Origin: Catellatospora sp. IY07-71
GTDB taxonomy: Bacteria; Actinomycetota; Actinomycetes; Mycobacteriales; Micromonosporaceae
DNA length: 64,000 nt
Direction of reading: 5' to 3'
Assembly: GCF_018326265.1 (NCBI RefSeq)
Contig: NZ_AP023360.1
Location: 3,959,501 to 4,023,500, forward strand
The notes beneath the pieces are model-generated. The model had not been told where the DNA came from. It did no database searches and saw only the letters and a list, made by a program, of their open reading frames with translations. The translations under genes and the position numbers were made by a program. Below, piece after piece: positions 34,857 through 49,341 of this stretch. Numbering within the stretch: position 1 is the first letter of the stretch; the number at the start of each line of letters is the position of its first letter.

Positions 34857-36734
34857 CTACCTGCGGCGGAGCCGCCGGGCCGCCCCGCGTGCCCAGCGGG
34901 CCGGGGCGAGCAGCGCCCGGCCCAGCCGGAAGCTCGCCGAGCCCTTCAGCTGCGCGACGGTCTGCCGCGCGGCCCGTGCCGCCTCCTCGGCGGCCCGCCG
35001 CTGCTGCTCCGCGCGGGCCGCCACCCCGCGCGTGTGCGCCAGCTCGCCGCGCAGCCGCCGGTCGGCCAGCAGCAGCTCCCGATACGCGGCGACGTCGGGC
35101 GCGGTGCCGGTGCCGACCGCGGCGGCCCGCCGCGCCAGCCGGTCCCGCCCGGCCTGATCCAGCCCCGCCGCGGCGGCCCGCAGGTCCGCGTCGAACTCCA
35201 CCGCGGCGGTCACCGCGGCCGGGTCCGGCCGGTCCCCGGCCGCGCCGATCAGGACCGGCGTCAGTTCAGCGGCGTCCAGCGTGCTGGGCCACGGGTGCAC
35301 GGCACCGCTGATCAGCAGCCGCTCCGCGAACCGGTGCAGGGTGCGCGCCAGCACCACCGGGAACGGCCGTGCTCCTGCCGACCACGACGGGTCGAGCACG
35401 GCCGGGCCGCCGGGCGACAGCGCCAGCCCGTCCAGACCCGCGCACGCGTAGGCCCCGGCGACCTCCCCCTGCTCGTCGGCGTGGCCGCGCAGCCAGTCCG
35501 CGTACGCCGTCAGCAGCGCGCGCGCACGTGGCGTGTCCCGGCGGCGGCACGCGTCCCGCAGCACCCGCTCGAACCCGGGCCCGGCAGGTACAGGTCCCGC
35601 CGCCGCCGCGACGTCCCGCGTGATCCCGAACAGCTCGCCGTCCGGGGCGGCCGATGTGCCGGCAGCGCGCTCGCCTCCCGTGAAGGTCCAGGTCACCGCA
35701 TATGGCCCCGTGGCGGGCTCGGCATGGATCAGCTCCGGCAACACCGCGCCCGGACGGGCGGCCGGCCGCTCACCGCTCTCCGGCATCGGTCCGTGGCCGG
35801 GATGCATCCCAGAAGTTGCGAGGGCACCTTCCGGGATGCCTGGTCCGGCGGATGCGTCGGCCTGCGGCACCGTGGTGCTCGGCCGTACGGCCGCCACCAG
35901 CCACAGCGGGGCGAAGGCCGGGCCCAGCCCGTTGGCGAGCGCGTCGGCCGCGAGGGCGTGCGGGTCACTGAGCACCGCTGCTCCGTCCCTGCCCGCCCAG
36001 GCGCCCGCGAGCGCGAGGTCCACCGCCGCGCCCATACCCCCGGGCGCGTCGGGGCCGCAGGCCTCCGGGTCGAGCAGCAACGCGGGGGCGAGCGGGTCGG
36101 GGTAGCCCAGCCACAGGCGGCGCATCGTCAGGCCGTCGCGGGCCAGCACCGCGCGCAGCCGGTCCGGGCTGCCGGGCCGCTCGGGATCGGCGGCGGCGGG
36201 CGCGTGCCAGTGCCGGTCGGCCGCCTCGTGGGGAGTGGGCGTCAGCGCGGTCAGCTCGTGTACGCCCAGCGGGTTGGCCACGCCGAGCAGCAGCAGCCCG
36301 CCCGGCGTGAGCAGGGCCGCGAGCGCGTCGAGTGCCGGCACCCAGCCCGGCTGCGGACCCTCGGCCGACACGACCCGGTCCAGCCCGTCCAGGGCCACGA
36401 TCACGTCGTACGCGCGCCCGGCGACCGCCTCCGGCCCGCCGCAGACCACCTCCGCGCCGACGGCCCGCGCCGCGTCGACGGCGTCCTGGCGGGAGCGCAG
36501 CAGCCAGGTGATCCGTTCGGGCGGCACGGGGAGCCCGGCGACGAGGGCCGGGTCGTGCGGCCCGGCGACCAGCACCCGGGCTTGCGGTGGCACGGCGCGG
36601 GCCAGCAGCGCCGCAGCGGCACGGCCGCCGCACGGGCCCGGCGGGCCGGTGAGATCGGACCAGTGCGGCATCTCCACCGGGGTCCGCGCCACCGTCCCCG
36701 CAGTGGCCGGGCGATCGCGTTCGACCGTGCTCAC
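34857..36734 (-). CDS. SAM methyltransferase-like protein of a polysaccharide locus
   Basis: The 625-residue protein begins with a Rossmann methyltransferase-like domain (about 25-240): RVLVAGPHDPALVAGL replaces the usual glycine-rich loop, YDVIVALDGLDRV and LLTPGGLLLLGVANP follow. After a low-complexity linker (about 290-340) there is a second uncharacterised domain, then a coiled-coil-like basic tail (TVAQLKGSASFRLGRALLAP) of the type seen at the ends of actinobacterial surface-polysaccharide proteins. The GTG start overlaps the stop of the upstream gene by 4 bp. The loose SAM motif leaves room for a catalytically different role. Confidence 0.62.
   Translation of the reverse strand: MSTVERDRPATAGTVARTPVEMPHWSDLTGPPGPCGGRAAAALLARAVPPQARVLVAGPHDPALVAGLPVPPERITWLLRSRQDAVDAARAVGAEVVCGGPEAVAGRAYDVIVALDGLDRVVSAEGPQPGWVPALDALAALLTPGGLLLLGVANPLGVHELTALTPTPHEAADRHWHAPAAADPERPGSPDRLRAVLARDGLTMRRLWLGYPDPLAPALLLDPEACGPDAPGGMGAAVDLALAGAWAGRDGAAVLSDPHALAADALANGLGPAFAPLWLVAAVRPSTTVPQADASAGPGIPEGALATSGMHPGHGPMPESGERPAARPGAVLPELIHAEPATGPYAVTWTFTGGERAAGTSAAPDGELFGITRDVAAAAGPVPAGPGFERVLRDACRRRDTPRARALLTAYADWLRGHADEQGEVAGAYACAGLDGLALSPGGPAVLDPSWSAGARPFPVVLARTLHRFAERLLISGAVHPWPSTLDAAELTPVLIGAAGDRPDPAAVTAAVEFDADLRAAAAGLDQAGRDRLARRAAAVGTGTAPDVAAYRELLLADRRLRGELAHTRGVAARAEQQRRAAEEAARAARQTVAQLKGSASFRLGRALLAPARWARGAARRLRRR
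35799..35839. repeat. Palindromic insert within a coding linker
   Basis: GGGATGCATCCC (35799-35810) is followed by AGAAGTTGCGAGGGCACCTTCC and GGGATGC (35833-35839). The segment carries CCCAGAAGTTG as in the palindrome at 22320 and GGGCACCTTC as in family D. It is read in frame as part of the low-complexity linker of the 34857-36734 protein. Confidence 0.55.
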
Positions 36735-37636
36735 GCCGCCTCCTTCACTGTCGTGACCAGCGTGGCGGGCCGGGCGTCGGCCGTCGTGGCGCGCGCCGGA
36801 AGGCCGGGCGGGGCGTCCGCGCCGGGCGGCTCCGGCCAGCCGAGCAGCGCGCGCAGCTCGGCGGGGGAGGCGAGGTGGGCCAGGCCCAGCTCGTCGTGGG
36901 CGATCGCGCGGGCGGTGGCCAGGTCCACCTGCTCGCCGTGCAGCGGCGCCCACTGGCGGCGGACCCGCTCGGCGCCGCCCATGGTCTGGTCCTCGCCGTC
37001 CAGCGTCATCGGGTCGCCGTACACGGCGGGTTCGCAGCCCGCGGTGATGCCGTAGAGGACCGCGGTGGACAGCCGGTTGGACGCCACCCGCCGGTGCCGG
37101 CGCAGCGTGGCGAGCTGGCGGTGCAGGAAGTCCGGGTCGCCGTCGCGCCGCCCCCAGCCGCGCCGGCCGTGGCAGACGACCTCGAACCCGGCCCGCTCGT
37201 ACACGTCGCGGACCCGGGGTGCGGTGTACTCGTTCCAGTGCAGGCAGATGGTGACCGGCTCGGTCTCCACCGCGCGGATGGTGTCCACGAGCCGCCGGTG
37301 GTCGCCGAGCACCTCCTGCTTCTCCCAGCCGTGGAAGGGATAGAACACGGTCCCGGCGCGCGCGGCGGGCTTCTCGGGCGCCATCCGCAGCAGGTACGCC
37401 CACGGCGCGCCCAGCACGAACACGTTGCGGCGGCCCAGTGACCAGGCGCGGCGGCGGGTCTGCTCGGACCACACCAGCAGCGGGTCGTGTCCCTCGATGC
37501 GGGCGTGCAGCTCCCAGCCGTCCCCGATGTTCCAGCCGTGCTGCAGGTAGCCGCGCACCCGCGGTTGCGGGTCGGTCAGCCCGCACCACGCGCCCAGGAT
37601 CGCGGCGTGGCCGTAGAAGTGGTTCACGTGGTGCAT
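36731..37636 (-). CDS. Glycosyltransferase-like surface-polysaccharide protein, unassigned
   Basis: A 301-residue soluble protein without signal or membrane helices. YGHAAILGAWCGL, GYLQHGWNIGDGW, VLGAPWAYLLRM, HWNEYTAP, RLSTAVLYGITAGCEPAVYGDPMT and QTMGGAERVRRQWAP read like the two halves of a GT-B-type transferase with a sugar-nucleotide site near the SNRLSTAVLYG stretch. I cannot assign a family with confidence. It overlaps the methyltransferase-like gene by 4 bp, so both act together, probably in making a surface polysaccharide (inference). GGGGG lies about 13 bp before the ATG. Confidence 0.6.
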   Translation of the reverse strand: MHHVNHFYGHAAILGAWCGLTDPQPRVRGYLQHGWNIGDGWELHARIEGHDPLLVWSEQTRRRAWSLGRRNVFVLGAPWAYLLRMAPEKPAARAGTVFYPFHGWEKQEVLGDHRRLVDTIRAVETEPVTICLHWNEYTAPRVRDVYERAGFEVVCHGRRGWGRRDGDPDFLHRQLATLRRHRRVASNRLSTAVLYGITAGCEPAVYGDPMTLDGEDQTMGGAERVRRQWAPLHGEQVDLATARAIAHDELGLAHLASPAELRALLGWPEPPGADAPPGLPARATTADARPATLVTTVKEAA

Positions 37637-37754
37637 GACTGTGGGCGCCCCCGCAGTTGCCTATATGTCACGCAATCCTCGCAGAAGCCGCACCGTCGCG
37701 TCCGACACGCCGGAAAAGTTCCGGGCCATGAGGTGGAAATATCGTTGCGGCGCG

Positions 37755-37760
37755 TATAGT
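37755..37760 (+). promoter_or_regulatory. -10 box of the YceI gene
   Basis: TATAGT lies 47 bp before the YceI start, in an AT-rich break in the GC background. GGAAAT stands about 20 bp upstream, which would suit an ECF-type -35 better than the TTGACA consensus. The assignment is by eye. Confidence 0.4.
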
Positions 37761-37807
37761 TGAACCATCACGTAAAGGCTTCCGCCACGAACCTGGAGGA
37801 CATCGTC

Positions 37808-38377
37808 ATGACCACGAACACCCGTACCTGGCACGGTCTCACCATCCCCACCGCCGGCACCTTCGTGCTCGACGCCGCCCACACGCGGGTCGGGTTCGTC
37901 ATCCGGCACCTGGTGGTGAGCAAGGTGCGCGGCGCGTTCAAGGACGTGGCCGGTGAGATCGTCATCGCGGAGGAGCCGCTGGACTCTTCGGTCAACGCCG
38001 TGATCCAGGCGGCCAGCATCGACACCGGCGTCGCCGACCGCGACAACCACCTGCGCACCGGCGACTTCCTGGAGGCCGAGAAGTACCCGGAGCTGAGCTT
38101 CCGCAGCACCGGCCTGCGCGCGGTGTCCGGCGAGAACTTCATCCTCGTCGGCGACCTGACCATCAAGGACGTCACCAAGCGCGTCGAGCTGGAGCTCGAG
38201 TTCGGTGGCGTGCAGAAGAGCCCGTACGGCCAGGAGGTCATCGGCTTCAGCGCGACCACCGAGATCGACCGCGAGGACTTCAACGTGACCTGGAACCAGG
38301 CGCTGGAGACCGGCGGCATGATGCTCGGCAAGACGCTGAAGATCGAGATCGAGGGCGAGGCCGTTCGCCAGGCCTGA
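37808..38377 (+). CDS. YceI-family lipid-binding protein
   Basis: The 189-residue protein has the YceI lipocalin-like barrel: AGTFVLDAAHTRVGFVIRHL opens the fold, KVRGAFKDVAGEI, VADRDNHLRTGDFLEAEKYPELSF and VGDLTIKDVTKRVELEL follow. YceI proteins bind isoprenoid chains such as polyprenyl pyrophosphates. No signal peptide is present, so it is cytoplasmic as usual in actinobacteria. GGAGGA precedes the ATG at 37808 by about eight bases. A perfect 15-bp-arm hairpin follows the stop. Confidence 0.9.
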   Translation: MTTNTRTWHGLTIPTAGTFVLDAAHTRVGFVIRHLVVSKVRGAFKDVAGEIVIAEEPLDSSVNAVIQAASIDTGVADRDNHLRTGDFLEAEKYPELSFRSTGLRAVSGENFILVGDLTIKDVTKRVELELEFGGVQKSPYGQEVIGFSATTEIDREDFNVTWNQALETGGMMLGKTLKIEIEGEAVRQA

Positions 38378-38390
38378 CCTGGACGGGCTC

Positions 38391-38428
38391 CGCGCGGCCG
38401 CGACCACGGGGTGGGTCGCGGCCGCGCG
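38391..38428. terminator. Terminator hairpin after the YceI gene
   Basis: CGCGCGGCCGCGACC (38391-38405) pairs perfectly with GGTCGCGGCCGCGCG (38414-38428) over 15 bp. Just beyond, CAAGATCG-CG-CGATGATCGAG (38431-38451) looks like the outer ends of a family A element with its core missing. Confidence 0.8.
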
Positions 38429-38516
38429 TCCAAGATCGCGCGATGATCGAGCCCGGCGGGCCGGGGTCGGGCCAAGGACGCCGGGCCGTCGCAGATGCGA
38501 GGGGTAGATTCGGCGC

Positions 38517-38906
38517 ATGACCGCATTCCGGATCGGCGAGGCCGCGGAGCTGCTGGGCGTCAGCGCCGACACGGTGCGCCGGCTCGTCGACTCCGGGCGG
38601 CTGCCCGCCCGCCGCGACGAGCACGGGCATCGGGTGGTGGCCGGGGGAGACCTGGCGGCGTACGCCCGCGCGCGGGCCGACGACCCCGACGGCCGCGCGG
38701 ACCGCTCCTCGGCCCGCAACCGGATGCGCGGCATCGTCACCGCCATCGTCAAGGACACCGTCATGGCGCAGGTCGACATCCAGGCTGGGCCGTTCCGGGT
38801 GGTGTCGCTGATGAGCCGCGAGGCCGTCGACGAGCTGGGCCTCGACATCGGCAGCGTCGCGGTCGCCGTCATCAAGTCCACCAACGTGGTCGTCGAACGT
38901 GACTGA
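38517..38906 (+). CDS. Helix-turn-helix plus TOBE (molybdate-binding) protein
   Basis: The 129-residue protein has an excisionase/MerR-like helix-turn-helix (FRIGEAAELLGVSADTVRRL, residues 4-23) and a C-terminal TOBE domain (RNRMRGIVTAIVKDTVMAQV, VVSLMSREAVDELGL, VAVAVIKSTNVVVE) that binds molybdate or tungstate. It is probably a molybdate-responsive regulator or storage protein. TAGATT-N6-ATG indicates a leaderless start. It overlaps the ABC ATPase gene by 8 bp, so the two are co-expressed. Confidence 0.85.
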   Translation: MTAFRIGEAAELLGVSADTVRRLVDSGRLPARRDEHGHRVVAGGDLAAYARARADDPDGRADRSSARNRMRGIVTAIVKDTVMAQVDIQAGPFRVVSLMSREAVDELGLDIGSVAVAVIKSTNVVVERD

Positions 38907-40017
38907 TCCGCCGGGGCCGCGCGCCGATCCCGTGACCCTGGTGGGCGGGTGGCCCGCCGAGCGAGCGCTGCTCAGCGCGCACCTCGTGGTCGAGCGGCCC
39001 CGGTTCCGGCTGGACGTGGCGCTCACCGCCGGACCGGGCGAGGTCGTCGCGCTGCTCGGGCCCAACGGCGCGGGCAAGACCACCGCGCTGCGTGCCCTGG
39101 CCGGGCTGCTGCCGCTGCACGGCGGGCGGCTGCGCCTGGGCGAGGTGCTCCTCGACGACCCGGCGGCCGACGTGTACGTGCCGCCCGAGCGCCGCCGCGT
39201 CGGCGTGGTGTTCCAGGACCACCTGCTCTTCCCGCACCTGTCCGCGCTCGAGAACGTCGCCTTCGGGCCCCGCTCCCGGGGCGACGGCCGCCGCGCCGCC
39301 CGCGCCGAGGCGCAGCGCTGGCTGGAGCGCTTCGGGCTGGCGGAGTACGCCGCGCGGCGCCCCCGGCAGCTGTCCGGAGGGCAGGCGCAGCGGGTGGCGC
39401 TGGCGCGGGCGCTGGCCGTACACCCTGATCTGCTCCTGCTGGACGAGCCGCTGGCCGCGCTGGACGCGCGGACCCGGATGGAGACGCGCGCCCGGCTGCA
39501 CCACGACCTGCGCGCGCACGAGGGCGCGACCCTGCTGATCACGCACGATCCGCTGGACGCGCTGGTGCTCGCGGACCGGCTGGTGATCATCGAGGACGGG
39601 CGCATCGTGCAGGAGGGCGACGCCGCCACGGTCACCGCGCGCCCGCGCACGGAGTACGTGGCCCGCCTCGTCGGGCTGAACCTCTACCGCGGCCGGGCGG
39701 CCGGGCACGACGTCACCCTGGACGGCGGGTTCACCATGGTCGCCGACGACGAGGTGCACGGTGAGGCGTTCCTCGCGTTCCCGCCCTCGGCCGTGGCGCT
39801 GTATCCGCAGCGGCCCGCGGGCAGCCCCCGGAACACGTGGGCGGCGACGGTGGTCGGGGTGCTGCCGCACGGCGACCACCTGCGCGTCGAGCTGGGCGGC
39901 CCGATCCACGCCGCCGCCGAGATCACCCCCGCCGCCGCGGCCTCCCTCGGCCTGCTCCCCGGGACGGAGGTCTGGGCCGCGGTGAAGGCCACCGAGACCC
40001 GCGCGTACCCGTACTGA
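38899..40017 (+). CDS. modC: ModC-type ABC transporter ATP-binding protein
   Basis: The 372-residue ATPase has Walker A LLGPNGAGKTTALRAL, Q-loop VFQDHLLFPHL, signature LSGGQAQRVALARAL, Walker B LLLLDEPLAALD and the switch His in LLITHDPLDAL; a C-terminal TOBE domain (about 260-370) fits molybdate importers. No ModA binding protein or ModB permease is encoded nearby, so it either works with components elsewhere or serves another transporter. Its GTG start lies within the end of the HTH-TOBE gene. Palindromes B1 and D4 follow the stop. Confidence 0.85.
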   Translation: MTDPPGPRADPVTLVGGWPAERALLSAHLVVERPRFRLDVALTAGPGEVVALLGPNGAGKTTALRALAGLLPLHGGRLRLGEVLLDDPAADVYVPPERRRVGVVFQDHLLFPHLSALENVAFGPRSRGDGRRAARAEAQRWLERFGLAEYAARRPRQLSGGQAQRVALARALAVHPDLLLLDEPLAALDARTRMETRARLHHDLRAHEGATLLITHDPLDALVLADRLVIIEDGRIVQEGDAATVTARPRTEYVARLVGLNLYRGRAAGHDVTLDGGFTMVADDEVHGEAFLAFPPSAVALYPQRPAGSPRNTWAATVVGVLPHGDHLRVELGGPIHAAAEITPAAAASLGLLPGTEVWAAVKATETRAYPY

Positions 40018-40077
40018 CCCGGCCCGCCCCGGGGCCGGCCGTGGTTCGCCCGCAGGTCCGGCTCCGGATCGGCCGCG

Positions 40078-40142
40078 TTGATCGCGGTCTCGTGTCACAA
40101 AGTGCGGTCCAGCCCCACCTTTTGACACGAGATCGCGATCAA
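40078..40142. repeat. Family B palindrome, copy B1
   Basis: TTGATCGCGGTCTCGTGTCA and GACACGAGATCGCGATCAA pair over 19 bp with one mismatch; inside, CAAAGTG can pair with CACCTTTTG. A diverged copy, B2, is at 56111-56174. It lies between convergent genes next to repeat D4. Confidence 0.75.
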
Positions 40143-40176
40143 CAGACCACCCGCCCCGCCCGCCCTCACTGGGTGC

Positions 40177-40230
40177 GTTAAGAAGGGCACCTTCTACTAC
40201 GGATAGCGATAAGAAGGTGCCCTTCCTTCA
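40177..40230. terminator. Family D palindrome, copy D4
   Basis: GTTAAGAAGGGCACCTTCT pairs with AGAAGGTGCCCTTCCTT; the right end supplies the TGA stop of valS on the minus strand. It lies between the convergent modC and valS genes and should end both transcripts. Confidence 0.82.
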
Positions 40231-42756
40231 CAGGTGGGCGAGGTAGGTGGGGTGGGGGTGGCGGGTGACGGACTCGATCACGCCGGCGTCGCGGATGTCT
40301 CGCTCGATGAGCGGGAAGTAGGCGTCGTCGGGGGCGGTGAGCAGGGGCACGGGCGTGCGCATGGACACCTTGGCGGCGGACTTGGCCCGGCGCACCGCCT
40401 CGATCGCCTCGGTCGCGGCGGTCAGCAGGGCGGGGTCACCGGCGTGGCCGTCCAGGTCGGACGGGGACGGCCACGGGGCACGGTGGATCGAGCCGGGCTG
40501 CCACCAGGACCAGGCCTCCTCGGTCACGAACGGCAGCACCGGGGCGAGCAGGCGCAGCAGCACCGACAGGGCGGTGCGCAGCGCCAGCCGCGCCGAGTCG
40601 GCGGCCGCGTCGCCGTGCTGCCCGTACGCGCGCTGCTTCACCAGCTCCAGGTAGTCGTCGCAGAACAGCCAGAAGAAGCGCTCCGCGGTGTCCAGGGCAC
40701 GGCCGGCGTCGTACTGCTCCAGCGCGTTCGCCGCCTCGTCGATCACGGGGCGGAGCGCGGCGAGCAGGGCACGGTCCAGCGGCTCGGTCACCGCGGCGGC
40801 CGGGCCGGGCGCGCCGAGCCCGAGCACGAACCGGGTGGCGTTGAGGATCTTCATGGCGAGCCGCCGCCCCACCCGCATCTGCCCGGTGTCGAAGGCCGTG
40901 TCGGCGCCGGGCCGGGCGGCGGCGGCCCAGTAGCGCACCGCGTCGGAGCCGTACTCCCGCAGCAGCCCCAGCGGCGTCACCACGTTGCCGACCGATTTGG
41001 ACATCTTCTTGCGGTCGGGGTCGAGGATCCAGCCCGCGATGGCGGCGGTGCGCCAGGGCAGCGTGCCGTGCTCGGTGTGGGCGCGCAGCACCGTCGCGAA
41101 CAGCCAGGTACGGATGATCTCGTGGGACTGCGGCCGCAGGTCCATCGGGAACACCTTGGCGAAGAGGGCGTCGTCGAAGCCCCAGCCACCCGCGATCTGC
41201 GGGGTGAGCGAGGAGGTGGCCCAGGTGTCCATCACGTCCGGGTCGCCGGTGAAGCCGCCGGGCCGCCCGCGTTGATCCTCGGTGTAGCCGGGCGGGGCGT
41301 CGGAGCTGGGGTCGATCGGCAGCGCCTCCTCGGCCGGGGTGATCGGGCGGTCGTGCAGGGGCTGCCCGTCGGCGTCCAGCGGATACCACACCGGGATGGG
41401 CACGCCGAAGAAGCGCTGGCGACTGATCAGCCAGTCTCCGGCGAGGCCGTGCACCCAGTGCTCGTATCGGGTGCGCATGTGCGGCGGCTGCCAGGCCAGC
41501 TCGCGTCCGCGGGCGAGCAGGTGCTCGCGTAGCGCGGCGTCGCGCCCGCCGTTGCGGATGTACCACTGCCGGGTCGACACGATCTCCAGCGGCTTGTCGC
41601 CGCGCTCGTAGAACTTCACCGGGTGGGTGATCGGCTCGGGTTCGCCGAGCAGCTCGCCGTGCTCGCGCAGCAGCGCGGTCACCCGCTCCCGCCCGGTGTG
41701 CACGGTGGCCCCGGCGAGCTGTCCATACAGCTCGCGGCCGGTCTCGGACAGCCCGTCGGGCGCGTCGGGCCGGAAGCGGCCGTCGAAGCCGAGCACCGGA
41801 CGGGTGGGCAGGTCCAGCTCGCGCCACCAGATCACGTCGGTGGTGTCGCCGAAGGTGCACACCATGGCGATGCCGGTGCCCTTGGCCGGGTCGGCCAGGC
41901 GGTGCGGCAGCACCGGCACCCGCGCCCCGAACAGCGGCGTGCGCACCGTGCTGCCGAACAGCGGCCGGTAGCGCTCGTCGTCGGGGTGCGCCACCAGCGC
42001 CACGCAGGCGGGCAGCAGCTCCGGGCGCGTGGTCGCCACGACCACCGGCTGACTCTGCGTGGCCACGATGATCGGTGCGGTCCCGTCGGGGTGGAAGGCC
42101 AGCCGGTGGTATGCCCCCGGCCGTTCCCGGTCCTCCAGCTCCGCCTGGGCCACCGCGGTCCGGAACGTGGTGTCCCACAGCGTCGGCGCCTGCGCCGGAT
42201 ACGCCTCGCCGCGCTCCAGCGCACGCAGGAAGGCGCGCTGCGACACGGCGCGGGCCCGCGTGCCGATGGTGGTGTAGAGCAGCGACCAGTCCACCGACAG
42301 CCCCACCAGCCGCCACACCTGCTCGAACGCCTCCTCGTCGCGGGCGGTCAGACGTTCGCACAGCTCGATGAAGTTGCGCCGCGAGATCGGCACCTGGGCC
42401 TTGCCCGGCTTCTCCGGCGGGGTGAAGTGCGGGTCGTAGGGCAGCGACGGGTCGCAGCGCACCCCGTAGAACTGCTGCACCCGGCGCTCGGTGGGCAGGC
42501 CGTTGTCGTCCCACCCCATCGGGTAGAACACGGCCCGGCCCCGCATGCGCTGGAAACGGGCGATGACGTCGGTCTGGGTGTACGAGAACACGTGCCCCAC
42601 GTGCAGCTCGCCGCTGGCCGTCGGGGGCGGGGTGTCGATGGCGAACACGCGCTCACGTGGCGCGTCGCGGTCGAAGCGGTACACGCGCTGTTCTTCCCAG
42701 CGCTGCGCCCACTTGTCAGGGAGACCGTCGATGGTCGGCTTGTCCGGAAGGCTCAT
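40228..42756 (-). CDS. valS: Valyl-tRNA synthetase
   Basis: The 842-residue class I synthetase attaches valine to tRNA-Val. It has the HIGH-type motif GELHVGHVFSYTQTD near residue 50, the editing domain (about 200-360), KKMSKSVGNVVTP near 600 and the anticodon-binding domain (about 660-800). It belongs to the shorter ValS type without a long C-terminal coiled coil. GAGGTGAGGTC precedes the ATG. A short upstream ORF rich in valine codons and a GC-rich hairpin suggest transcription attenuation by charged tRNA-Val (see the leader features). The stop lies inside repeat D4. Confidence 0.94.
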   Translation of the reverse strand: MSLPDKPTIDGLPDKWAQRWEEQRVYRFDRDAPRERVFAIDTPPPTASGELHVGHVFSYTQTDVIARFQRMRGRAVFYPMGWDDNGLPTERRVQQFYGVRCDPSLPYDPHFTPPEKPGKAQVPISRRNFIELCERLTARDEEAFEQVWRLVGLSVDWSLLYTTIGTRARAVSQRAFLRALERGEAYPAQAPTLWDTTFRTAVAQAELEDRERPGAYHRLAFHPDGTAPIIVATQSQPVVVATTRPELLPACVALVAHPDDERYRPLFGSTVRTPLFGARVPVLPHRLADPAKGTGIAMVCTFGDTTDVIWWRELDLPTRPVLGFDGRFRPDAPDGLSETGRELYGQLAGATVHTGRERVTALLREHGELLGEPEPITHPVKFYERGDKPLEIVSTRQWYIRNGGRDAALREHLLARGRELAWQPPHMRTRYEHWVHGLAGDWLISRQRFFGVPIPVWYPLDADGQPLHDRPITPAEEALPIDPSSDAPPGYTEDQRGRPGGFTGDPDVMDTWATSSLTPQIAGGWGFDDALFAKVFPMDLRPQSHEIIRTWLFATVLRAHTEHGTLPWRTAAIAGWILDPDRKKMSKSVGNVVTPLGLLREYGSDAVRYWAAAARPGADTAFDTGQMRVGRRLAMKILNATRFVLGLGAPGPAAAVTEPLDRALLAALRPVIDEAANALEQYDAGRALDTAERFFWLFCDDYLELVKQRAYGQHGDAAADSARLALRTALSVLLRLLAPVLPFVTEEAWSWWQPGSIHRAPWPSPSDLDGHAGDPALLTAATEAIEAVRRAKSAAKVSMRTPVPLLTAPDDAYFPLIERDIRDAGVIESVTRHPHPTYLAHL

Positions 42757-42804
42757 GACCTCACCTCGGGGAACAGGCGCCCGTACGCGAGGGGGAGGCC
42801 GGGT

Positions 42805-42836
42805 TCGACCACCGCGCGCCGGGGCGCGGTGATCGA
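42805..42836 (-). terminator. Candidate attenuator hairpin of valS
   Basis: On the transcript, TCGATCACCGCGC pairs with GCGCGGTGGTCGA over 13 bp (one G-U pair) around a 6-nt loop. It starts eight bases after the stop of the leader ORF and lies 48 bp before the valS start. No T-run follows, as in many actinomycete terminators. Confidence 0.6.
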
Positions 42837-42843
42837 AGGATGA

Positions 42844-42903
42844 CTACGCGCGGCCCGAGTCGGCTACGCGTACGACGAACGATGCGGAGAGCGCGTGGGT
42901 CAT
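42844..42903 (-). CDS. Leader peptide of valS with clustered valine codons
   Basis: The 19-residue ORF reads MTHALSASFVVRVADSGRA. Valine occupies three of the four codons 10-13 (GTC, GTA, then GTA after an Arg). AAGGAGGAGCC before the ATG is among the strongest ribosome sites in the window, which is striking for so short a frame. A -10 box TACCAT lies about 33 bp upstream (42936-42941). A ribosome waiting for charged tRNA-Val at these codons would change pairing in the RNA that follows, the classic attenuation logic known for amino-acid operons in actinobacteria. The peptide itself probably has no function. The case rests on position and codon content only. Confidence 0.68.
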   Translation of the reverse strand: MTHALSASFVVRVADSGRA

Positions 42904-42973
42904 GGCTCCTCCTTCGGCATCGCTCGGTTGGCACGATGGTAACCGGTCGGCCCGGCGCGCGCATCCGGTCATC

Positions 42974-43011
42974 GCCGGATCACTCCGGCGGGTGCCGCCG
43001 GATCACTCCGG
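42974..43011. repeat. Direct repeats upstream of the 43076 gene
   Basis: GCCGGATCACTCCGG occurs at 42974-42988 and 42997-43011, 23 bp apart (about two helical turns). TCACTCCG recurs a third time near 43020. Each unit is itself partly palindromic (CCGG ends). They lie between the valS leader promoter and the divergent 43076 gene, so they may be operator sites. Confidence 0.6.
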
Positions 43012-43075
43012 AAGTGTCGTCACTCCGATGAGTCGGACCATTGCGCTCGGTGACGAAAGCGATCGATAGTGGCCT

Positions 43076-43915
43076 GTGACCAATCCTGCCTCCCCGCGCA
43101 CGATCGTCCCCTATGCCGGGGCCGCGATCGTGGTCGTCTGTGCCGCCTATTTCGGTTTCCTCATGGTCGGCGTGCCCGGCATCGTGGCCGTGCTCCTCCT
43201 CGGGGCGCTCGCCGTGCTCGTCGCGCAGTTGCGCGCCGCCCGGGCGAGCCGCCGCCGAGTGCCGCCTCCGGACAGGGCCGAGGCGGATCGGCGCACCGCG
43301 CTGACGGTGGCCGGTCTGGGCGCGGGCGGCGCGGTGCTCGCGGCGCTCGTCACGGCGCTGGTCCCGGTGCTGTTCAAAGACGACGTCCCGGCCGCCGCGA
43401 CGTCCGCTGCCACGCCTGGCGCCTCGGCAGGCCACACCGCGTCGCCGTCGCCGTCGGCGCCGCCCTCGCCGTCGTCGGTGCCGTGGGCCGGTCCGGGCAC
43501 CGACTGCCTGGTCCTCGACGTGGACGTCGACCAGTACGGGTCGGTCGGCTCTGCGCTCGCCGTCGGGTATCAGGTCAACCTGACGGGGCAGTGGCAGCCC
43601 GCGTACGACGGCGGCAAGCTCTGGATCTTCGTGACCGGCGGCGGCACCAACGCGCACTTCCCGTACGTGGGGGAGATCGTGCGCGACGGCGGCCGCTGGG
43701 TCGCGTGGGGTATCCCGCTCGGCCGCAAGGAGGTGGCCGCCGACGCGAAGATGGGCGTGCGCACCCTGGAGGTGATCGTGGCGACCCCTGAGCAGGACAA
43801 GCAGCTGCGCAAGCAGGTCGACGCGGCGGACTTCTGGACCAGGGGCGGGGTCGTGCAGCAGCTGCCCGCCGGCGCCGCCTCCGTCGCCCGGATACCGGTC
43901 GACCGCGTCTGCTGA
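43076..43915 (+). CDS. Membrane-anchored protein with extracytoplasmic domain, unknown
   Basis: The 279-residue protein has two hydrophobic helices near the N-terminus (about 12-45) and a third (about 76-97), then a Pro-Ser-Thr-Ala linker (about 105-135) and a 140-residue C-terminal domain with one Cys near its start and one at its last residue (TDCLVLDVDVDQYG, VDRVC), likely a disulphide outside the cell. I do not recognise the domain. The GTG start is backed by TTGCGC-N18-GATAGT just upstream. Direct repeats lie further upstream. The TM2 gene follows on the same strand after an iteron-bearing gap. Confidence 0.68.
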   Translation: MTNPASPRTIVPYAGAAIVVVCAAYFGFLMVGVPGIVAVLLLGALAVLVAQLRAARASRRRVPPPDRAEADRRTALTVAGLGAGGAVLAALVTALVPVLFKDDVPAAATSAATPGASAGHTASPSPSAPPSPSSVPWAGPGTDCLVLDVDVDQYGSVGSALAVGYQVNLTGQWQPAYDGGKLWIFVTGGGTNAHFPYVGEIVRDGGRWVAWGIPLGRKEVAADAKMGVRTLEVIVATPEQDKQLRKQVDAADFWTRGGVVQQLPAGAASVARIPVDRVC

Positions 43916-43945
43916 TCAACCGTCAAGCCAGGACGGTGTGCCCGA

Positions 43946-43978
43946 GTGACGGTTGTTACCAGGGGTGACTGTTGTTAC
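43946..43978. repeat. Direct repeats upstream of the TM2 gene
   Basis: GTGACGGTTGTTAC (43946-43959) and GTGACTGTTGTTAC (43965-43978) differ at one base and are 19 bp apart. They lie 65-97 bp before the TM2 gene start and could be tandem activator sites. Confidence 0.6.
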
Positions 43979-44042
43979 GGTCCGAACTCGCCGATCACGG
44001 CTCGGTGATCGGTTACACCTCTTGATCCGAAGGAAAACGACT

Positions 44043-44267
44043 GTGACCACCGCTCCGGCCACCACCGGCAAGTCCTGGCTCGTCACCCTGCTGCTCTGCA
44101 TCTTCCTGGGCACCCTGGGCGTGCACCGCTTCTACACCGGCAAGATCGGCACCGGCATCCTGCAGCTGATCACGCTCGGCGCCTTCGGCATCTGGACGTT
44201 CATCGACTTCATCATGATCCTGATCGGCAAGTTCGACGACAAGCAGGGCCAGCCGCTCGTCAAGTGA
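44043..44267 (+). CDS. TM2-domain protein
   Basis: The 74-residue protein has two membrane helices (about 12-30 and 38-60) joined by the TM2 signature LGTLGVHRFYTGKIGTGI, then a short basic tail. TM2 proteins are widespread small membrane proteins of unclear function. GAAGGA lies eight bases before the GTG. A terminator hairpin follows. Confidence 0.88.
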   Translation: MTTAPATTGKSWLVTLLLCIFLGTLGVHRFYTGKIGTGILQLITLGAFGIWTFIDFIMILIGKFDDKQGQPLVK

Positions 44268-44283
44268 CCTGACGCGGTCCGTG

Positions 44284-44316
44284 CGGCCCCTCGCGCCCGG
44301 CAGGCGCGGGGGGCCG
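44284..44316. terminator. Terminator hairpin after the TM2 gene
   Basis: CGGCCCCTCGCGCC (44284-44297) pairs with GGCGCGGGGGGCCG (44303-44316) with one mismatch, 16 bp after the TM2 stop and before the trmB promoter. Confidence 0.7.
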
Positions 44317-44337
44317 TCGCTGTATCCTGACTGTCTT

Positions 44338-45054
44338 GTGACCACCTCTGACCTGGCCGGCACGCGCGAAGACGGCCGCCACATGACGCGCATCACCACC
44401 TTCTACCCCCGTCGCGGGCGGGTGAGCGGGCGGCACGAGGACGCGCTGACCAGGCTGTGGCCGACGTACGGGGTCACCATCGCCGACCCGTACCCACCGC
44501 TGGACCCGGCGGATCTGTTCGGCCGCAGCGCGCCGCTGGTGCTGGAGATCGGCTCCGGCATGGGCGACGCCACCGTGGCCATGGCCGCGGCCGACCCGGG
44601 CCGCGACTACCTGGCGGTCGAGGTCTTCCCGCCCGGCCTGGGCAACCTGCTGGCCGTGGTCGAGGAGCGCGGGCTGACGAACGTGCGGGTCGCCCAGGGC
44701 GACGCGCTGCACCTGCTCCGGCACATGATCGCCCCGGACTCCCTCGCCGCCGTGCACGTCTACTTCCCCGACCCGTGGCCCAAGGCGCGCCACCACAAGC
44801 GCCGCCTGATCCAGCCGGACAACGTGGCGCTGATCCGCTCGCGCCTGGCCGTGGGCGGCATCCTGCACTGCGCGACCGACTGGGCCGACTACGCCGAGCA
44901 GATGGCCGAGGTGCTCGCCGCCGCCGACGGCCTGGCCAACCTGCACGACGGCTTCGCCCCCCGCCCCGCGCACCGCCCGGTCACCAAGTTCGAGCAGCGC
45001 GGCGTCGCCGCCGGCCGCCACATCTTCGACCTCCTCCACCGCCGCACCCACTGA
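44338..45054 (+). CDS. trmB: tRNA (guanine-N7-)-methyltransferase
   Basis: The 238-residue enzyme methylates G46 of tRNAs with SAM. It has the SAM loop LVLEIGSGMGDATVAMA near residue 70, VHVYFPDPWPKARHHKRR (the TrmB active-site stretch), HCATDWADYAEQM and VTKFEQRG. The GTG at 44338 is preferred: TATCCT lies nine bases upstream as a -10 box. The frame upstream of it runs through the terminator hairpin of the previous gene. Repeat D5 follows the stop directly. Confidence 0.92.
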   Translation: MTTSDLAGTREDGRHMTRITTFYPRRGRVSGRHEDALTRLWPTYGVTIADPYPPLDPADLFGRSAPLVLEIGSGMGDATVAMAAADPGRDYLAVEVFPPGLGNLLAVVEERGLTNVRVAQGDALHLLRHMIAPDSLAAVHVYFPDPWPKARHHKRRLIQPDNVALIRSRLAVGGILHCATDWADYAEQMAEVLAAADGLANLHDGFAPRPAHRPVTKFEQRGVAAGRHIFDLLHRRTH

Positions 45055-45139
45055 AAGGAGGGGCACCTTCGTCGGATCGCGTCAGCGAGACGAGCAGCGG
45101 CTCAGCACGCTATGCGTGGTAGAAGGTGCCCTTCTTAAC
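45055..45139. terminator. Family D palindrome with enlarged loop, copy D5
   Basis: GGAGGGGCACCTTC and GAAGGTGCCCTTCTTAAC are the arms but the loop is about 52 nt, much longer than in the other copies, with its own GC-rich sequence. It lies directly after the trmB stop. The loop enlargement could be an insertion into a normal family D element. Confidence 0.72.
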
Positions 45140-45258
45140 CCTCGGCTTAGGACGTAGCTAAGTTTCGTCGTCTAGTTGTTACTTGTAGGTTCTCGACGGA
45201 ATCGATGCATTCTCATTAATGTCAGGCCACCAGTCCCTCTTACCCCGGGAGGACCTCC

Positions 45259-46266
45259 ATGGTGGCCACCCTGTCACCTCTGCTGCGCCGTGCCGCGGCG
45301 TTCGGCGGCGGCGTCGCGCTGACGCTCGGCACGCTGCTGGCCGTGCCCACCGCCGCGCAGGCCAGCACCGACTACGGCCCGGCGGCCTGGGTGCCGGCCA
45401 GCACCAGCAACTACACCAACGCCAGCCGCGAGTCCGACTACAACATCAACTACGTGGTGATCCACACCATCCAGGGCTCGTACAGCAGCGCGATCAACTG
45501 GTTCCAGAACCCGGCCGCTCAGGTCAGCGCCCACTACGTCGTCTCCAAGGGCGGCGCCGTGACGCAGATGGTGCGCGAGGCCGACGTGGCCTGGCACGCC
45601 GGCAACTGGACGTACAACACCCAGTCGATCGGCATCGAGCACGAGGGCTACGTCGAGCAGGACGGCTGGTACACCGAGGCGATGTACCAGGCGTCGGCGG
45701 CCATCGTGCGCAGCGTGACCAGCAAGTACGGCATCCCGCGCGACCGCGCCCACATCATCGGCCACAACGAGGTCCCCGGCGCCACCCACACCGACCCCGG
45801 TTCGCGGTGGAACTGGACGTACTTCATGCAGCTGGTCAACGGGACCACGCCGCCGTCGTGGACGCAGACCGTCGACAACACCACCGCGGGCCGGTTCACC
45901 GCCTCGGCCAACTGGGGCACGTCGAGCTACTCGGCGCAGCGGTACGGCGCCGACTACCGGTACGCCAACCCGCAGGCCGTGTCGGACGCCGCCTGGTACA
46001 AGTTCGCCGTGCCGGCGACCGCGAGCTACCGGGTCGAGGTCTGGTATCCGGCCGTGGCGGGGTACAACACGTCCACGCCGTACGTCGTCGTGACCACCGG
46101 CGGCAACACCACCGTCCAGGTGAACCAGCAGGCCAACGGCGGTAAATGGGTCACCCTCGGCACGTTCACCCTGGCCGCGGGCGACTACAACGCCGTCGGC
46201 GTCAGCCGCTGGACCAGCACCTCCGGCTACGTCATCGCGGACGCGGTCAAGCTGACCCGCGTCTGA
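45259..46266 (+). CDS. Secreted N-acetylmuramoyl-L-alanine amidase
   Basis: The 335-residue protein has a signal peptide (1-36, ending AQAS), an Amidase_2/PGRP-like domain (about 45-200) with zinc ligands in YVVIHTIQGS, HAGNWTYN and GHNEVPGATHTDPG, and a C-terminal beta-sandwich (about 205-335) similar to the golvesin/XlyCBM-like wall-binding type. It cuts the amide between muramic acid and the stem peptide, outside the cell. GGGAGGA lies five bases before the ATG. The 120 bp upstream are AT-rich; TTCGTC-N16-TAGGTT is a possible promoter. A perfect hairpin follows. Confidence 0.9.
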   Translation: MVATLSPLLRRAAAFGGGVALTLGTLLAVPTAAQASTDYGPAAWVPASTSNYTNASRESDYNINYVVIHTIQGSYSSAINWFQNPAAQVSAHYVVSKGGAVTQMVREADVAWHAGNWTYNTQSIGIEHEGYVEQDGWYTEAMYQASAAIVRSVTSKYGIPRDRAHIIGHNEVPGATHTDPGSRWNWTYFMQLVNGTTPPSWTQTVDNTTAGRFTASANWGTSSYSAQRYGADYRYANPQAVSDAAWYKFAVPATASYRVEVWYPAVAGYNTSTPYVVVTTGGNTTVQVNQQANGGKWVTLGTFTLAAGDYNAVGVSRWTSTSGYVIADAVKLTRV

Positions 46267-46288
46267 TCGCCGCTCCGGCGTGATCGAA

Positions 46289-46322
46289 CGCCCGCCATGC
46301 CGTTCCCCCGGCATGGCGGGCG
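46289..46322. terminator. Terminator hairpin after the amidase gene
   Basis: CGCCCGCCATGCC (46289-46301) pairs perfectly with GGCATGGCGGGCG (46310-46322) around an 8-nt loop, 23 bp after the amidase stop. Confidence 0.82.
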
Positions 46323-46373
46323 CCTCGGCCACGGGTGGGCCGTTTCGCAGGTGCGGATCATCGTGGGGCCTGC

Positions 46374-46475
46374 TAGGCTCCTGCGCATGTACATCTGAGC
46401 GTGATCCCCACGCCCGCGCCGCTCGACGTGCGCGGCGAGCGTGCCGCGCCGCCCCGTCGAGGGCCGCGCGCCTGA
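46374..46475 (+). promoter_or_regulatory. Leaderless promoter with a three-codon ORF before the 46543 gene
   Basis: TAGGCT (46374-46379) lies exactly seven bases before ATG-TAC-ATC-TGA (46387-46398), the same geometry as the leaderless genes of this window. A GTG two bases after that stop opens 24 codons to 46475 with hairpin-forming GC-rich sequence. Both could be upstream ORFs in the leader of the 65-residue gene. Confidence 0.4.
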
Positions 46476-46542
46476 TCCGTCTTTTCCCCACGCCCTGCCC
46501 GCGACGGCGGCTGTCGGCGTGCCGCATCCGTAGGAGACACTC

Positions 46543-46740
46543 ATGCGTGAAGATCACAGCTCGGAGCAGCCCGCGCCGGACGAGACCGCCGAGGCCGAGC
46601 AGCAGCCGATGAACCGCGCCGAGCGGCGCGCCAAGGGCAAGCAGTCCGGCCAGCAGCAGGCGTACGGCAAGCAGGCGTTCGCGCCCAAGAAGAGCCAGGG
46701 CCACGGGCCCCGGCTGTGGGCGAACCGCCGCGCCGGCTGA
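46543..46740 (+). CDS. Small basic protein, unknown
   Basis: A 65-residue, highly polar protein. The first 20 residues are acidic (Glu/Asp/Gln-rich) and the rest strongly basic and Gln/Lys-rich (MNRAERRAKGKQSGQQQ, FAPKKSQGHGPRLWANRR). Such composition suits an RNA- or ribosome-associated peptide, but I do not recognise a family. TAGGAGA lies seven bases before the ATG. It has its own 165-nt leader with possible upstream ORFs. Confidence 0.68.
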   Translation: MREDHSSEQPAPDETAEAEQQPMNRAERRAKGKQSGQQQAYGKQAFAPKKSQGHGPRLWANRRAG

Positions 46741-46829
46741 GCCGTTTCCGCACCTCGATCCGCCGATCCCGGTCCCGCCGGGGTCGGCGGATCCGTGTTT
46801 GTCGGTCCCCCTGCCTAGACTCCGCCGGC

Positions 46830-46946
46830 ATGACGATGCCGACCATTGTGGACTGTCTTGCCGAGCACGGAGAGCCGCCGGGTGACCGGTGCGGGGTGCC
46901 GGGTGGAGTGCCGATCCGGGCGGGTGGCAGATGTCCCGGCCGGTGA
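46830..46946 (+). CDS. Possible leaderless 38-residue ORF overlapping the next gene
   Basis: TAGACT (46816-46821) lies eight bases before ATG-ACG-ATG, opening 38 codons with two Cys (IVDCLAEHG, GDRCGVPGG) that end 16 bp inside the 46931 gene. It may be a small protein, a leader that couples translation to the next gene, or chance. There is no known motif. Confidence 0.35.
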   Translation: MTMPTIVDCLAEHGEPPGDRCGVPGGVPIRAGGRCPGR

Positions 46947-47410
46947 CCTATGCCGAACACGCCGACCAGGTCACGGCCTGGATCACGAGCGGTGACCTGG
47001 ACGCCGCCGCGGCCGGGCTGGTGGCCGCGCGCCGCGCCGGGGGAGGCGCGGGGCTGCGGCCGCTGCTGGAGCCGGTGGCCGCGCTGCCCCGCCCGCAGCT
47101 GACGGCGCTGGTGCGGGCGCTCCTGCGGCAGCGCCGCGCGCACGGCGGCTGGCCGGTGGACAGCGTGCTCGGCGCGGTGTGCCCGCTGCTGCCGCCGGAC
47201 CTGCCGCCGGACCTGGTCGCCGAGCTGCTCACGTTCGCGGTGGACAGCTCCTACGACCTGCCGGTGATGACGCTGGCCGGGCTCGTCGCCCAGCAGTTGC
47301 GGCACGGCGCGCTGCCGCCCGCGGTGCTGGCCCTCATGGAGCGGCGCAAGCGGGAGAGCCTGTGGCTGCGCGAGCTGGCCGCCTCGGCGGCGGCGCGTGC
47401 GGTGCGGTAA
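46931..47410 (+). CDS. Helical-repeat protein, unknown
   Basis: About 159 residues, almost entirely alpha-helical, with repeating Leu/Ala-rich helices (LRPLLEPVAALPRPQLTALV, ALLRQRRAHGGWPVDSVL) reminiscent of HEAT-like arrays. No signal or membrane segment. I do not recognise a family. The ATG at 46931 follows GGGTGG; an in-frame ATG at 46889 would add 14 residues. Its start overlaps the 38-codon leaderless ORF, so translation may be coupled. It converges on the TPR/FN3 gene with 11 bp between stops. Confidence 0.65.
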   Translation: MSRPVTYAEHADQVTAWITSGDLDAAAAGLVAARRAGGGAGLRPLLEPVAALPRPQLTALVRALLRQRRAHGGWPVDSVLGAVCPLLPPDLPPDLVAELLTFAVDSSYDLPVMTLAGLVAQQLRHGALPPAVLALMERRKRESLWLRELAASAAARAVR

Positions 47411-47421
47411 CGGTGGGCGGA

Positions 47422-49095
47422 TCAGGGGCGGGCCGCGGGGGACCGCCCGCGATCGGTGCACACCGGCGGTGACATCACGGTCTGCTCGGCGCTGTACACG
47501 AGGGTGACGGTGACGCAGTAGTCACGCCGTGGGCTGAGGCCGGGCAGCGTGAACGTCTCCGTCCCGGCGGGCAGCGACTGCATGGCGCGCATCGGCTCAC
47601 CGGCCGGGGCCGCCGACAGCACCACCGCCGCGGCCACCCCGGCCGGGTACTGCCAGCTGACGCGCAGCTTCTCGCCCTCGTCGGCGAGGGTCAGCCCGGT
47701 CGCGGCCGGGGGCGCCGACGGCGGCGGCACCGAGGTGGCGGCGGCGGGCGGCGTCGGCTCGGCGTCCGGATCGGACCCGTCGGCCAGCAGGAACGCGCCT
47801 ACCAGCGCGGTGATGGCGACCAGCGCCGCGCACACGGCCAGCGCCGCCGCCCCCGCGCCGCGCCGCCTGCGCACGGGCGGGGAGTACGACGTGCGCAGGC
47901 CCGGCGGGGGCGTGGTCGGCACCGGGAACGGCAGATCCTGCCTGCTCGGCGCGGACCGGCCGGTCCGGTCCGGATACACCACCGGCACCTGCTGCCCGCC
48001 GAACCCGACGGTCGGACCGCTCCCCTCCGGCGGGCCGCCGTCGCGTGCCGTGCGCTGCTCCGGCCACGTGCGGTCGCGCATCCCGTGCTGCTCCGGCCAG
48101 TCGCCGGCCGGAGGCGTGTGCCGGTCGGGCCGGCTGCCGGTGGAGGGTGCGCCGCCCGTCGCGGGGTGGTGGCCGGATGCGTCCCCGGCGTCGGGGGACA
48201 ACGGGGCCTGACGGGTGCGGCGGATGCGCGCGGGGTCGTCGTACCGCTCGAAGATCTCGTCGTCGGGCCACTCGCCGGCGTCCCCGGCGGGGCCAGGGCC
48301 GGTGTGGTGCGGCCCCGGGATGAGGTCGTCCGGGTGGGGCACCAGCACCGGCAGCACGCCCGGCCCGGGGTCGGCAGCCCGCAGGCGCTGCTCCTCCGGC
48401 GGGGGCGTGCCGCAGCGGTGCTCGGCGTCGGCCGCGGCCCCCGTGGCGGCCTGCAGCAGCCGGTGCGTGTCGTCGTCGGCGGGCAGCCAGGCGGACTCCT
48501 CGCGGGCCTGCTCCAGCAGCTCGTGCGCCCGGTCGAGGTCGCCGCAGTCGCGCCACATCCCGGCCAGCCGGACGGTCATGCGTACGTTGACCGGATGTCC
48601 CGGGCCGTGCCGGGACACGTGCGCGGCGAGCGCCTCGGCGAGGTGGCGGCGCCCGTCGGCGCAGCTGCCGCGGGCGTGCTCGACCACGGCCGCGTCCGCG
48701 CGGGCGGCCAGCGTGCGGTCGGCGTCGGGTCCGTCGGCCCGCGACAGGTCGCGGATCAGGTCGTCGTAGACGTCGGCCGCCCGGTCCAGCGCACCGGTGC
48801 GGTGCAGGCAGACCGCCAGCACGCCGAGCGCGTGCAGGGTGCGCCGGTCCAGGTCGCCGTGCAGCGCCTGCGCGGCGGCGTGGGCGTACGCGGCCCAGCT
48901 GCGGGCCGCGTGCGGCTCGCCCAGGTGCAGCAGCACGCCGGCGTACAGCGCGGCGGTGTCGGCCTCGGCCGCGTCGGCGTGGCGCGGGTCCTGGTGCGCG
49001 AGCGCGAGCTGGTCCCGGAGCAGTTGCCGGGCAGCCGGGAAGTCGAGTCGGCGCACCAGCTCGCGTGCGCGGGCCAGCCGTCCCCCCTCAGGCAT
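47422..49095 (-). CDS. TPR-like N-terminal, single-pass membrane protein with FN3-like ectodomain
   Basis: The 557-residue protein has a tetratricopeptide-like helical region (about 1-220: ARSWAAYAHAAAQALHGD, GALDRAADVYDDLIRD, RMTVRLAGMWRDCGDLDRAHELLEQ), a long disordered Pro/Gly/Asp-rich linker (about 225-410), one membrane helix (AAALAVCAALVAITALVGAFLL) and an outer domain resembling fibronectin type III (about 470-555). The TPR part faces the cytoplasm. The role is unknown; such layouts occur in actinobacterial scaffold proteins. CACGAT-N7-ATG supports the 49095 start; an in-frame codon at 49104 is possible. Confidence 0.7.
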   Translation of the reverse strand: MPEGGRLARARELVRRLDFPAARQLLRDQLALAHQDPRHADAAEADTAALYAGVLLHLGEPHAARSWAAYAHAAAQALHGDLDRRTLHALGVLAVCLHRTGALDRAADVYDDLIRDLSRADGPDADRTLAARADAAVVEHARGSCADGRRHLAEALAAHVSRHGPGHPVNVRMTVRLAGMWRDCGDLDRAHELLEQAREESAWLPADDDTHRLLQAATGAAADAEHRCGTPPPEEQRLRAADPGPGVLPVLVPHPDDLIPGPHHTGPGPAGDAGEWPDDEIFERYDDPARIRRTRQAPLSPDAGDASGHHPATGGAPSTGSRPDRHTPPAGDWPEQHGMRDRTWPEQRTARDGGPPEGSGPTVGFGGQQVPVVYPDRTGRSAPSRQDLPFPVPTTPPPGLRTSYSPPVRRRRGAGAAALAVCAALVAITALVGAFLLADGSDPDAEPTPPAAATSVPPPSAPPAATGLTLADEGEKLRVSWQYPAGVAAAVVLSAAPAGEPMRAMQSLPAGTETFTLPGLSPRRDYCVTVTLVYSAEQTVMSPPVCTDRGRSPAARP

Positions 49096-49180
49096 GGCAC
49101 CCATCGTGCCCGCTCACCCACCACCTGTGAAGTCCCCAGATCAACACTCCTGACCCGACGGAGCGCCGCGCCCCGCCCAA

Positions 49181-49258
49181 GGTCATCCGACTTGCCTGGC
49201 ACATGGGCGTATGACGGCACGAGATACGCCCATGTGCCAGGCAAATCGAACGATCATG
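49181..49258. repeat. Family A palindrome, copy A4
   Basis: GACTTGCCTGGCACATGGGC pairs with GCCCATGTGCCAGGCAAATC, the CACA/TGTG arm type as in A1. It lies between two divergent genes, 85 bp from each start, where a terminator has no obvious use. Confidence 0.82.
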
Positions 49259-49341
49259 CCGGGGCGTGGCGGGGTGCGGCGCGGGCGGGGCGATCGGGCG
49301 GGCGGGTGGAGTGCTTGGCGGACGGTAGGGTCTGCGACCAC

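Follow-up and report, generated by a model that had tools for sequence, protein, structure and literature searches.

A candidate valyl-tRNA-sensing leader peptide upstream of an auxiliary valyl-tRNA synthetase gene in Catellatospora

In Streptomyces, leader-peptide attenuators have been predicted upstream of the aminoacyl-tRNA synthetase genes leuS and trpS (Seliverstov et al. 2005, PMC1262725). These systems resemble the locus described in this work in combining an actinobacterial synthetase gene with a leader ORF of cognate codons and with competing hairpins. They differ from it in having poly-U terminators, whereas the valS leader presented here is a valine leader without a U-tract. Neither 'valS' nor 'valyl' occurs in the accessible text of PMC1262725. 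According to the same accessible text, changing leader codons of Streptomyces coelicolor ilvB to other sense codons leaves regulation intact. For the amino-acid attenuators of Escherichia coli, the theory of selective charging, in the available part of its description (Elf and Ehrenberg 2005, PMC1183508), holds that leader codons are chosen for their sensitivity to starvation. Such a choice of leader codons for sensitivity to limitation of the amino acid is the feature shared with our locus; the E. coli systems have a terminator as their output, whereas here the regulated gene is additionally recoded away from the codons of its leader.

A leader is also present upstream of ilvB in the same genome (L237, G000:C1). 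It encodes MSTSRSARVLT*, with the codons GTA CTT ACC at the end, and its ATG is located 148 nt upstream of the ilvB ATG; a strong hairpin is followed there by a T6 tract. The two leaders are alike in being short, in carrying a Val codon near the end and in having hairpins before the gene. The ilvB leader has T6 after its hairpin and shows no Val recoding, while the valS leader lacks a U-tract and its gene is recoded. A question raised by the valS leader is how its hairpin works without a U-tract, given the high GC content of the genome and the presence of such a tract in the ilvB leader.

An auxiliary gene for an antibiotic-resistant tryptophanyl-tRNA synthetase (TrpRS) of Streptomyces is reportedly controlled by ribosome-mediated transcriptional attenuation, as Vecchione and Sello are said to have found in 2010. 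The likeness lies in a second synthetase beside the housekeeping one and in leader-peptide control. That system concerns tryptophan, whereas the present one concerns valine.

The literature searched, with subscription papers mostly outside its scope, contained no report of a valS leader peptide, and so constitutes weak evidence on this point. The accessible part of PMC2965389 does not mention valS, and the string 'vals' in PMC5794164, considered as a possible valS report, belongs in the passages available to Val-suppressor strains.

In this work, we describe positions 42805-42941 of the window (the whole 64,000-nt stretch of Catellatospora sp. IY07-71 DNA that was analysed), which quite probably represent a leader through which translating ribosomes sense valyl-tRNA and control an auxiliary alt_ValS gene. 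If this is true, valine would join the amino acids whose synthetase genes are under leader-peptide control in Actinobacteria.

The leader ORF and its distribution

The leader is located on the minus strand between valS (42756-40228) and a divergent ORF (43076-43915, plus strand) for which no NCBIfam match was found. The initial annotation had proposed a 19-codon ORF with three Val codons among codons 10-13, preceded by a -10-like TACCAT and followed by a valyl-tRNA synthetase gene, and all of these elements were found. The ORF encoding MTHALSASFVVRVADSGRA* (42844..42903, minus strand) runs over 19 codons from ATG at 42903 to TAG at 42844 and has homologues in 14 genomes. On direct reading, its codon 10 is GTC and codons 11 and 13 are GTA, within the run GTC GTA CGC GTA (42876-42865, minus strand). 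A strong ribosome site, the Shine-Dalgarno (SD) sequence AAGGAGGA (42907..42914, minus strand), is likewise read directly, and its AGGAGGAG shows no variation across the genus alignment. The hexamer TACCAT, the presumed leader promoter, is read at 42936..42941 (minus strand, 42941-42936); a TANCAT hexamer is located 5' of the leader in 11/11 genus members and is more distant in L092. For this promoter, a sigma-70 consensus scan of 36000-50000 gave no passing -35/-10 pair. The gene that follows, its ATG 87 nt from the leader stop, is valS (40228..42756, minus strand), the presumed regulated gene. It encodes a protein of 842 aa, which is assigned to the alt_ValS type by a score of 1414 bits against the curated NF000540 cut-off of 900.

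Apart from the leader, the window contains 214 short ORFs of 8-40 codons, none of which has three Val codons within four; the leader itself stands outside this set, an in-frame upstream ATG lengthening it to 42 codons. Given a background of 2 GTA among 217 Val codons, counted in seven window ORFs taken as genes, the presence of at least two GTA among the three leader Val codons has a p of about 2.5e-4.

It had also been anticipated that relatives would keep a short ORF with Val codons as well as the hairpin, while other residues changed. A comparison of the valS upstream regions agrees with this, as ORF, Val codons and hairpin are all kept in 11/11 genus genomes and in three other genera, with N-terminal residues varying as predicted. 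Each of the 11 genus genomes carries a single copy of the motif directly 5' of the same valS, with the ORF 84-87 nt ahead of the gene. A family survey by DNA search and another by a looser pattern, which covered 200 genomes of 44 genera each, added the three further genera, one genome each (G026, G028 and G075). In these the leader is again directly upstream of alt-valS and encodes VTHTFQAVVRVANSGHA, VTHHLQAVVRVADQGRA and MTHRQAVVVRVPNKGRA, respectively. They have no Shine-Dalgarno sequence and start 7 nt after TACTAT, TACGAT or TAGCAT, because of which their ORFs are presumably leaderless. Thus, a translatable ORF is present throughout, with SD and ATG in the genus and with a -10-like hexamer 7 nt before the start in the other three genera.

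Leader lengths of 17, 19 and 21 differ by whole codons only, and the stop is TAG or TAA. Start codon aside, each of the 14 leaders before valS has 3-4 Val codons, most of them GTA, with the first Val alternating between GTC and GTA within the genus. The N-terminal residues vary freely and the C-terminal VRVA..GRA is nearly invariant. Pairwise comparison of the genus leaders gave 86 non-synonymous and 27 synonymous codon differences, with the three codon positions varying alike, and hence no ordinary coding signature; this is the pattern that would be expected where the peptide does not matter.

The 14 leader-bearing valyl-tRNA synthetases (ValRS) form one clade (SH-aLRT 100), apart from the other alt-ValRS of the family, in a tree built by a quick method from 54 of 114 rows. 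In this tree, sequences of Micromonospora and Asanoa group with those of other family genomes, which suggests that the family is Micromonosporaceae. In total, 110 upstream regions (11 with the leader) and then 17 more (3 with the leader) were scanned; no such leader was found in the 113 other alt-valS upstream regions (99 + 14), two of the 99 being represented by only 33 nt (L109) and 150 nt (L011). The L164 alt-valS region is likewise without a leader. An order-wide pattern search found none in 396 other genomes, the own copy alone matching among 397, and a class-wide covariance model with strict filters found none in 393 others, again with the own copy alone among 394; both searches draw evenly, and the other known leader carriers are absent from their matches. 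A pattern match in G219 was considered as a further leader and ruled out, not being a valS leader, and stray pattern matches appeared in L036 and L171 during the leader scan. The leader is real and conserved, and it is very likely functional.

Predicted competing hairpins and the output step

The leader RNA is predicted to form the mutually exclusive pairings 1:2, 2:3 and 3:4 known from classical attenuators. Hairpin 1:2 (UACGCGU.GCC / GGC.GCGCGUA; 42845..42872, minus strand) overlaps the Val codons with its 5' arm, region 1 taking in Val codons 11 and 13 and region 2 corresponding to the ORF end. With a ribosome over the Val codons and region 4 still to be transcribed, the alternative hairpin 2:3 (42820..42857, minus strand) reaches -15.9 kcal/mol here; across six distinct sequences modelled in this state, its energy ranges from -14.6 to -18.1 kcal/mol. 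The footprint of the stalled ribosome was assumed to reach 14 nt. The GC-rich hairpin 3:4 (42804..42837, minus strand) has 14 bp with UUC/GAA and an 11 bp core at 42834-42807, with no U-tract. A hairpin after the stop was correctly recognized in the initial annotation, whereas its distance of eight bases was not confirmed: the stem begins 6-7 nt after the leader stop.

A ribosome positioned at the stop covers region 2 in the model, and the part of 3:4 that remains free then folds. Once region 4 exists, 3:4 is mostly more stable than 2:3, a stalled ribosome included, so that 2:3 would have to win kinetically by forming first. In known attenuators, 2:3 likewise forms before 3:4.

The 191-nt leader folds at -88.2 kcal/mol (z -2.88), with 1 of 200 shuffles as good. 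Hairpin 3:4 is present in the full-leader minimum free energy (MFE) structure of 13 of the 14 sequences, G028 being the loss, and with other fold ends it is lost from the MFE structure in L093, L094 or G026. RNAalifold recovers both 1:2 and 3:4 unaided. In an alignment of 9 distinct sequences, helix 3:4 has 99.0% of cells paired, and both partners have changed in two of its pairs (A-U/G-C/G-U and C-G/U-A). Hairpin 1:2, with 10 pairs, has 98.9% of cells paired, and 8 of its 10 pairs never vary. Of 500 shuffles, 2 matched the covariation score of the whole structure, 74 reached the number of pairs with two-sided changes, and 499 reached the pair-type count. A slide of +3 columns scored 0.132 versus 0.167, though only 46.8% paired. 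Covariation thus gives modest support to the competing hairpins, modest in 3:4 and none in 1:2.

On the sensing side, the leader appears to work like a classical attenuator. Transcription would start about 7 nt after TACCAT, and a ribosome would translate the leader. When charged tRNA-Val is ample, in particular the GTA-reading tRNA-Val(UAC), the ribosome would reach the stop and cover region 2, allowing hairpin 3:4 to form and valS expression to be cut. When charged tRNA-Val is scarce, the ribosome would stop at GTC GTA CGC GTA and cover region 1; 2:3 would then pair, 3:4 would be prevented and valS would be expressed. The valS mRNA, with Val codons almost all GTG (tRNA-Val(CAC), probably tRNA-Val(UAC)), would allow the enzyme to be made even under the inducing shortage. 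Visible in the sequence itself are the ORF, its codons and their conservation, the predicted competing pairings, the codon recoding and the second ValRS; we infer the promoter, the stalling, the identity of the sensed tRNA and the ending of transcription at 3:4. Leader-peptide sensing of valyl-tRNA is well supported by these sequence features.

The region had been proposed as a valine leader-peptide attenuator for valS. The sensing part of that proposal is upheld by the conserved ORF and Val codons, whereas attenuation in the strict sense is not, as a U-tract after hairpin 3:4 is absent in 14/14 sequences (0-3 T in 8 nt). In a classical attenuator, 3:4 is an intrinsic terminator followed by a U-tract, and because this tract is missing here we do not class the leader as a classical transcription attenuator. 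We lean towards hairpin 3:4 ending transcription, rather than acting on translation or RNA stability, and termination by the hairpin or by Rho seems more likely than a translational or decay-based output.

The less likely possibility is that the same leader-peptide sensor acts through translation, Rho or RNA decay, with no intrinsic terminator. The missing U-tract in all 14 sequences would fit this, and terminator-less leader peptides are described for mycobacterial cys operons in the accessible text of PMC1262725. The valS Shine-Dalgarno sequence GAGGTGAGG (42759..42767, minus strand) points the same way, being predicted mostly paired in all 14, despite differing sequences between genera; its mean pairing is 0.74-0.88 here and 0.56-0.98 over the 14 sequences and three modelled states. 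Against a translational output, the largest shift in this pairing between the 3:4 state and a state with region 4 free is 0.14 (from 0.88 to 0.74 here), so that no clear translational switch was seen when the part after region 3 was folded with and without region 4. The pairing of the valS start codon does change between states in some sequences, in both directions.

A GGGCGC-like element between the hairpin and valS (window 42777-42782) is complementary to region 3. Its counterparts in G026, G028 and G075 (L165, L167 and L172) have an 8-11 bp complement, reached by 11, 0 and 8 of 300 shuffles, respectively. In the genus, the runs of pairs are near chance (7-bp runs in 20-41 and 6-bp runs in 162-249 of 300 shuffles; 249 of 300 for the own sequence), and we claim no further partner of region 3 from this element.

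The near-invariance of the C-terminal VRVA..GRA could also suggest a conserved small protein, or a peptide whose own sequence, not its Val codons, arrests the ribosome. We consider this improbable. The nearly invariant 3' half of the ORF coincides with the RNA pairing regions, and the C-terminal conservation is explained by its coincidence with regions 1 and 2. In other genera the stretch reads VRVPNKGRA and VRVANSGHA with pairing kept, the N-terminus varies freely, and the rare Val codon GTA is used, which a function of the peptide does not require.

Hardly any credence attaches to a T-box or another tRNA- or metabolite-binding riboswitch: ileS T-boxes are described in several Actinobacteria (accessible text of PMC1262725) and a weak match occurs elsewhere in this genome, but Rfam gives no match at E<=1 in 42400-43400. 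This bears out the earlier remark that no T-box is visible upstream, and with no covariance-model match there, a T-box before valS was ruled out. The sole genome-wide T-box match (G000:C1:81305-81487, L001; 33 bits, cut-off 93) is located away from valS, beside a 1049-residue ValRS-related frame that is probably ileS. That an ORF and a hairpin arose by chance in a GC-rich spacer is scarcely conceivable, even though GC-rich palindromes pair easily and short ORFs abound, with 214 in the window: the leader is kept in four genera, its length changing by whole codons, and valS shows a codon shift.

Codon choice in the leader and in valS

The leaders and the genes behind them differ sharply in their use of GTA, which makes up 35 of 44 leader Val codons (start codons excluded) versus 0 of 725 in the 14 valS genes. 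In these genes 664 of the 725 Val codons are GTG, and valS of this genome has 49 GTG, 4 GTC and 0 GTA. The GTG fraction is 0.84-0.96 in 14/14 leader-bearing valS genes, against a median of 0.41 and a maximum of 0.79 in 99 other alt-valS genes. It is 0.61 in the canonical valS of the same genome; six window neighbours have 81 GTG:80 GTC, and ilvB of the same genome shows no Val shift (31 GTG:22 GTC). At 25 shared Val sites, the counts are 140 GTG:3 GTC (6 genes) versus 163 GTG:88 GTC:3 GTA (11 genes). Set against 79 others with GC3 over 0.9, the 11 genus genes fell outside the range for valine alone among 12 amino acids; leucine CTG was also somewhat raised (median 0.86 versus 0.69), still within range. 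The neighbour gene of valS in G075 is likewise GTG-rich (24:5). As the 14 leader-bearing genes form one clade, the p values are not independent tests, and the shift to GTG was probably a single evolutionary event, kept in every member seen.

One gene each was found for tRNA-Val with the anticodons UAC, GAC and CAC by ARAGORN applied to the Rfam tRNA hits, 53 of 60 of which were scanned; the seven outside the scan are 81-87 nt long. In standard decoding, UAC is required for GTA and GAC for GTC; CAC, and probably UAC as well, can read GTG. Selective charging theory predicts codons that stay readable under starvation, and the regulated gene may avoid the codons of its leader for a reason matching the one by which leader codons are chosen. 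We tentatively propose a codon-partitioned starvation circuit, in which the leader would sense through the rare GTA, the gene of an inducible back-up ValRS would be cleared of GTA and most GTC, and the off-switch would be a hairpin without a U-tract, a non-standard attenuator output. Such a circuit would let a shortage of valyl-tRNA, for example under inhibition of the canonical ValRS, induce the enzyme without blocking its translation. The opposite codon choices of leader and gene amount to a natural experiment on selective tRNA charging, both halves of which can be swapped and measured.

A second ValRS is encoded in this genome; it is 34% identical to alt_ValS over the aligned part and scores above the cut-offs of the ordinary valS models (687 residues scanned). 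The other ten genus members, together with G026, G028 and G075, have a second ValRS match of 31-35% identity, in two pieces in G075, and these 13 are taken to be the canonical enzyme on the basis of this identity. Thus, two ValRS, the alt_ValS and a more distant one, occur in 14/14 leader carriers. At E <= 1e-50, some sampled genomes have one ValRS type alone, of either kind, and either type can therefore probably serve alone. If the proposed control is real, it would point to alt_ValS as a back-up enzyme made on demand, perhaps as protection from a ValRS inhibitor. Upstream of the canonical valS of this genome, four short ORFs are listed in the first 300 nt, and none is rich in Val.

The neighbourhood of valS appears partly syntenic across genera, because the gene divergent from valS in G075 (L151) resembles the window ORF 44281-45054 (ITTFYPRRGRVSGRHEDAL...). 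At its other side, a long hairpin, AAGGGCACCTTCT...AGAAGGTGCCCTTCTTAA, comes after the end of valS (window 40138-40230, minus strand); L087, L089 and L092 have comparable hairpins where their valS ends.
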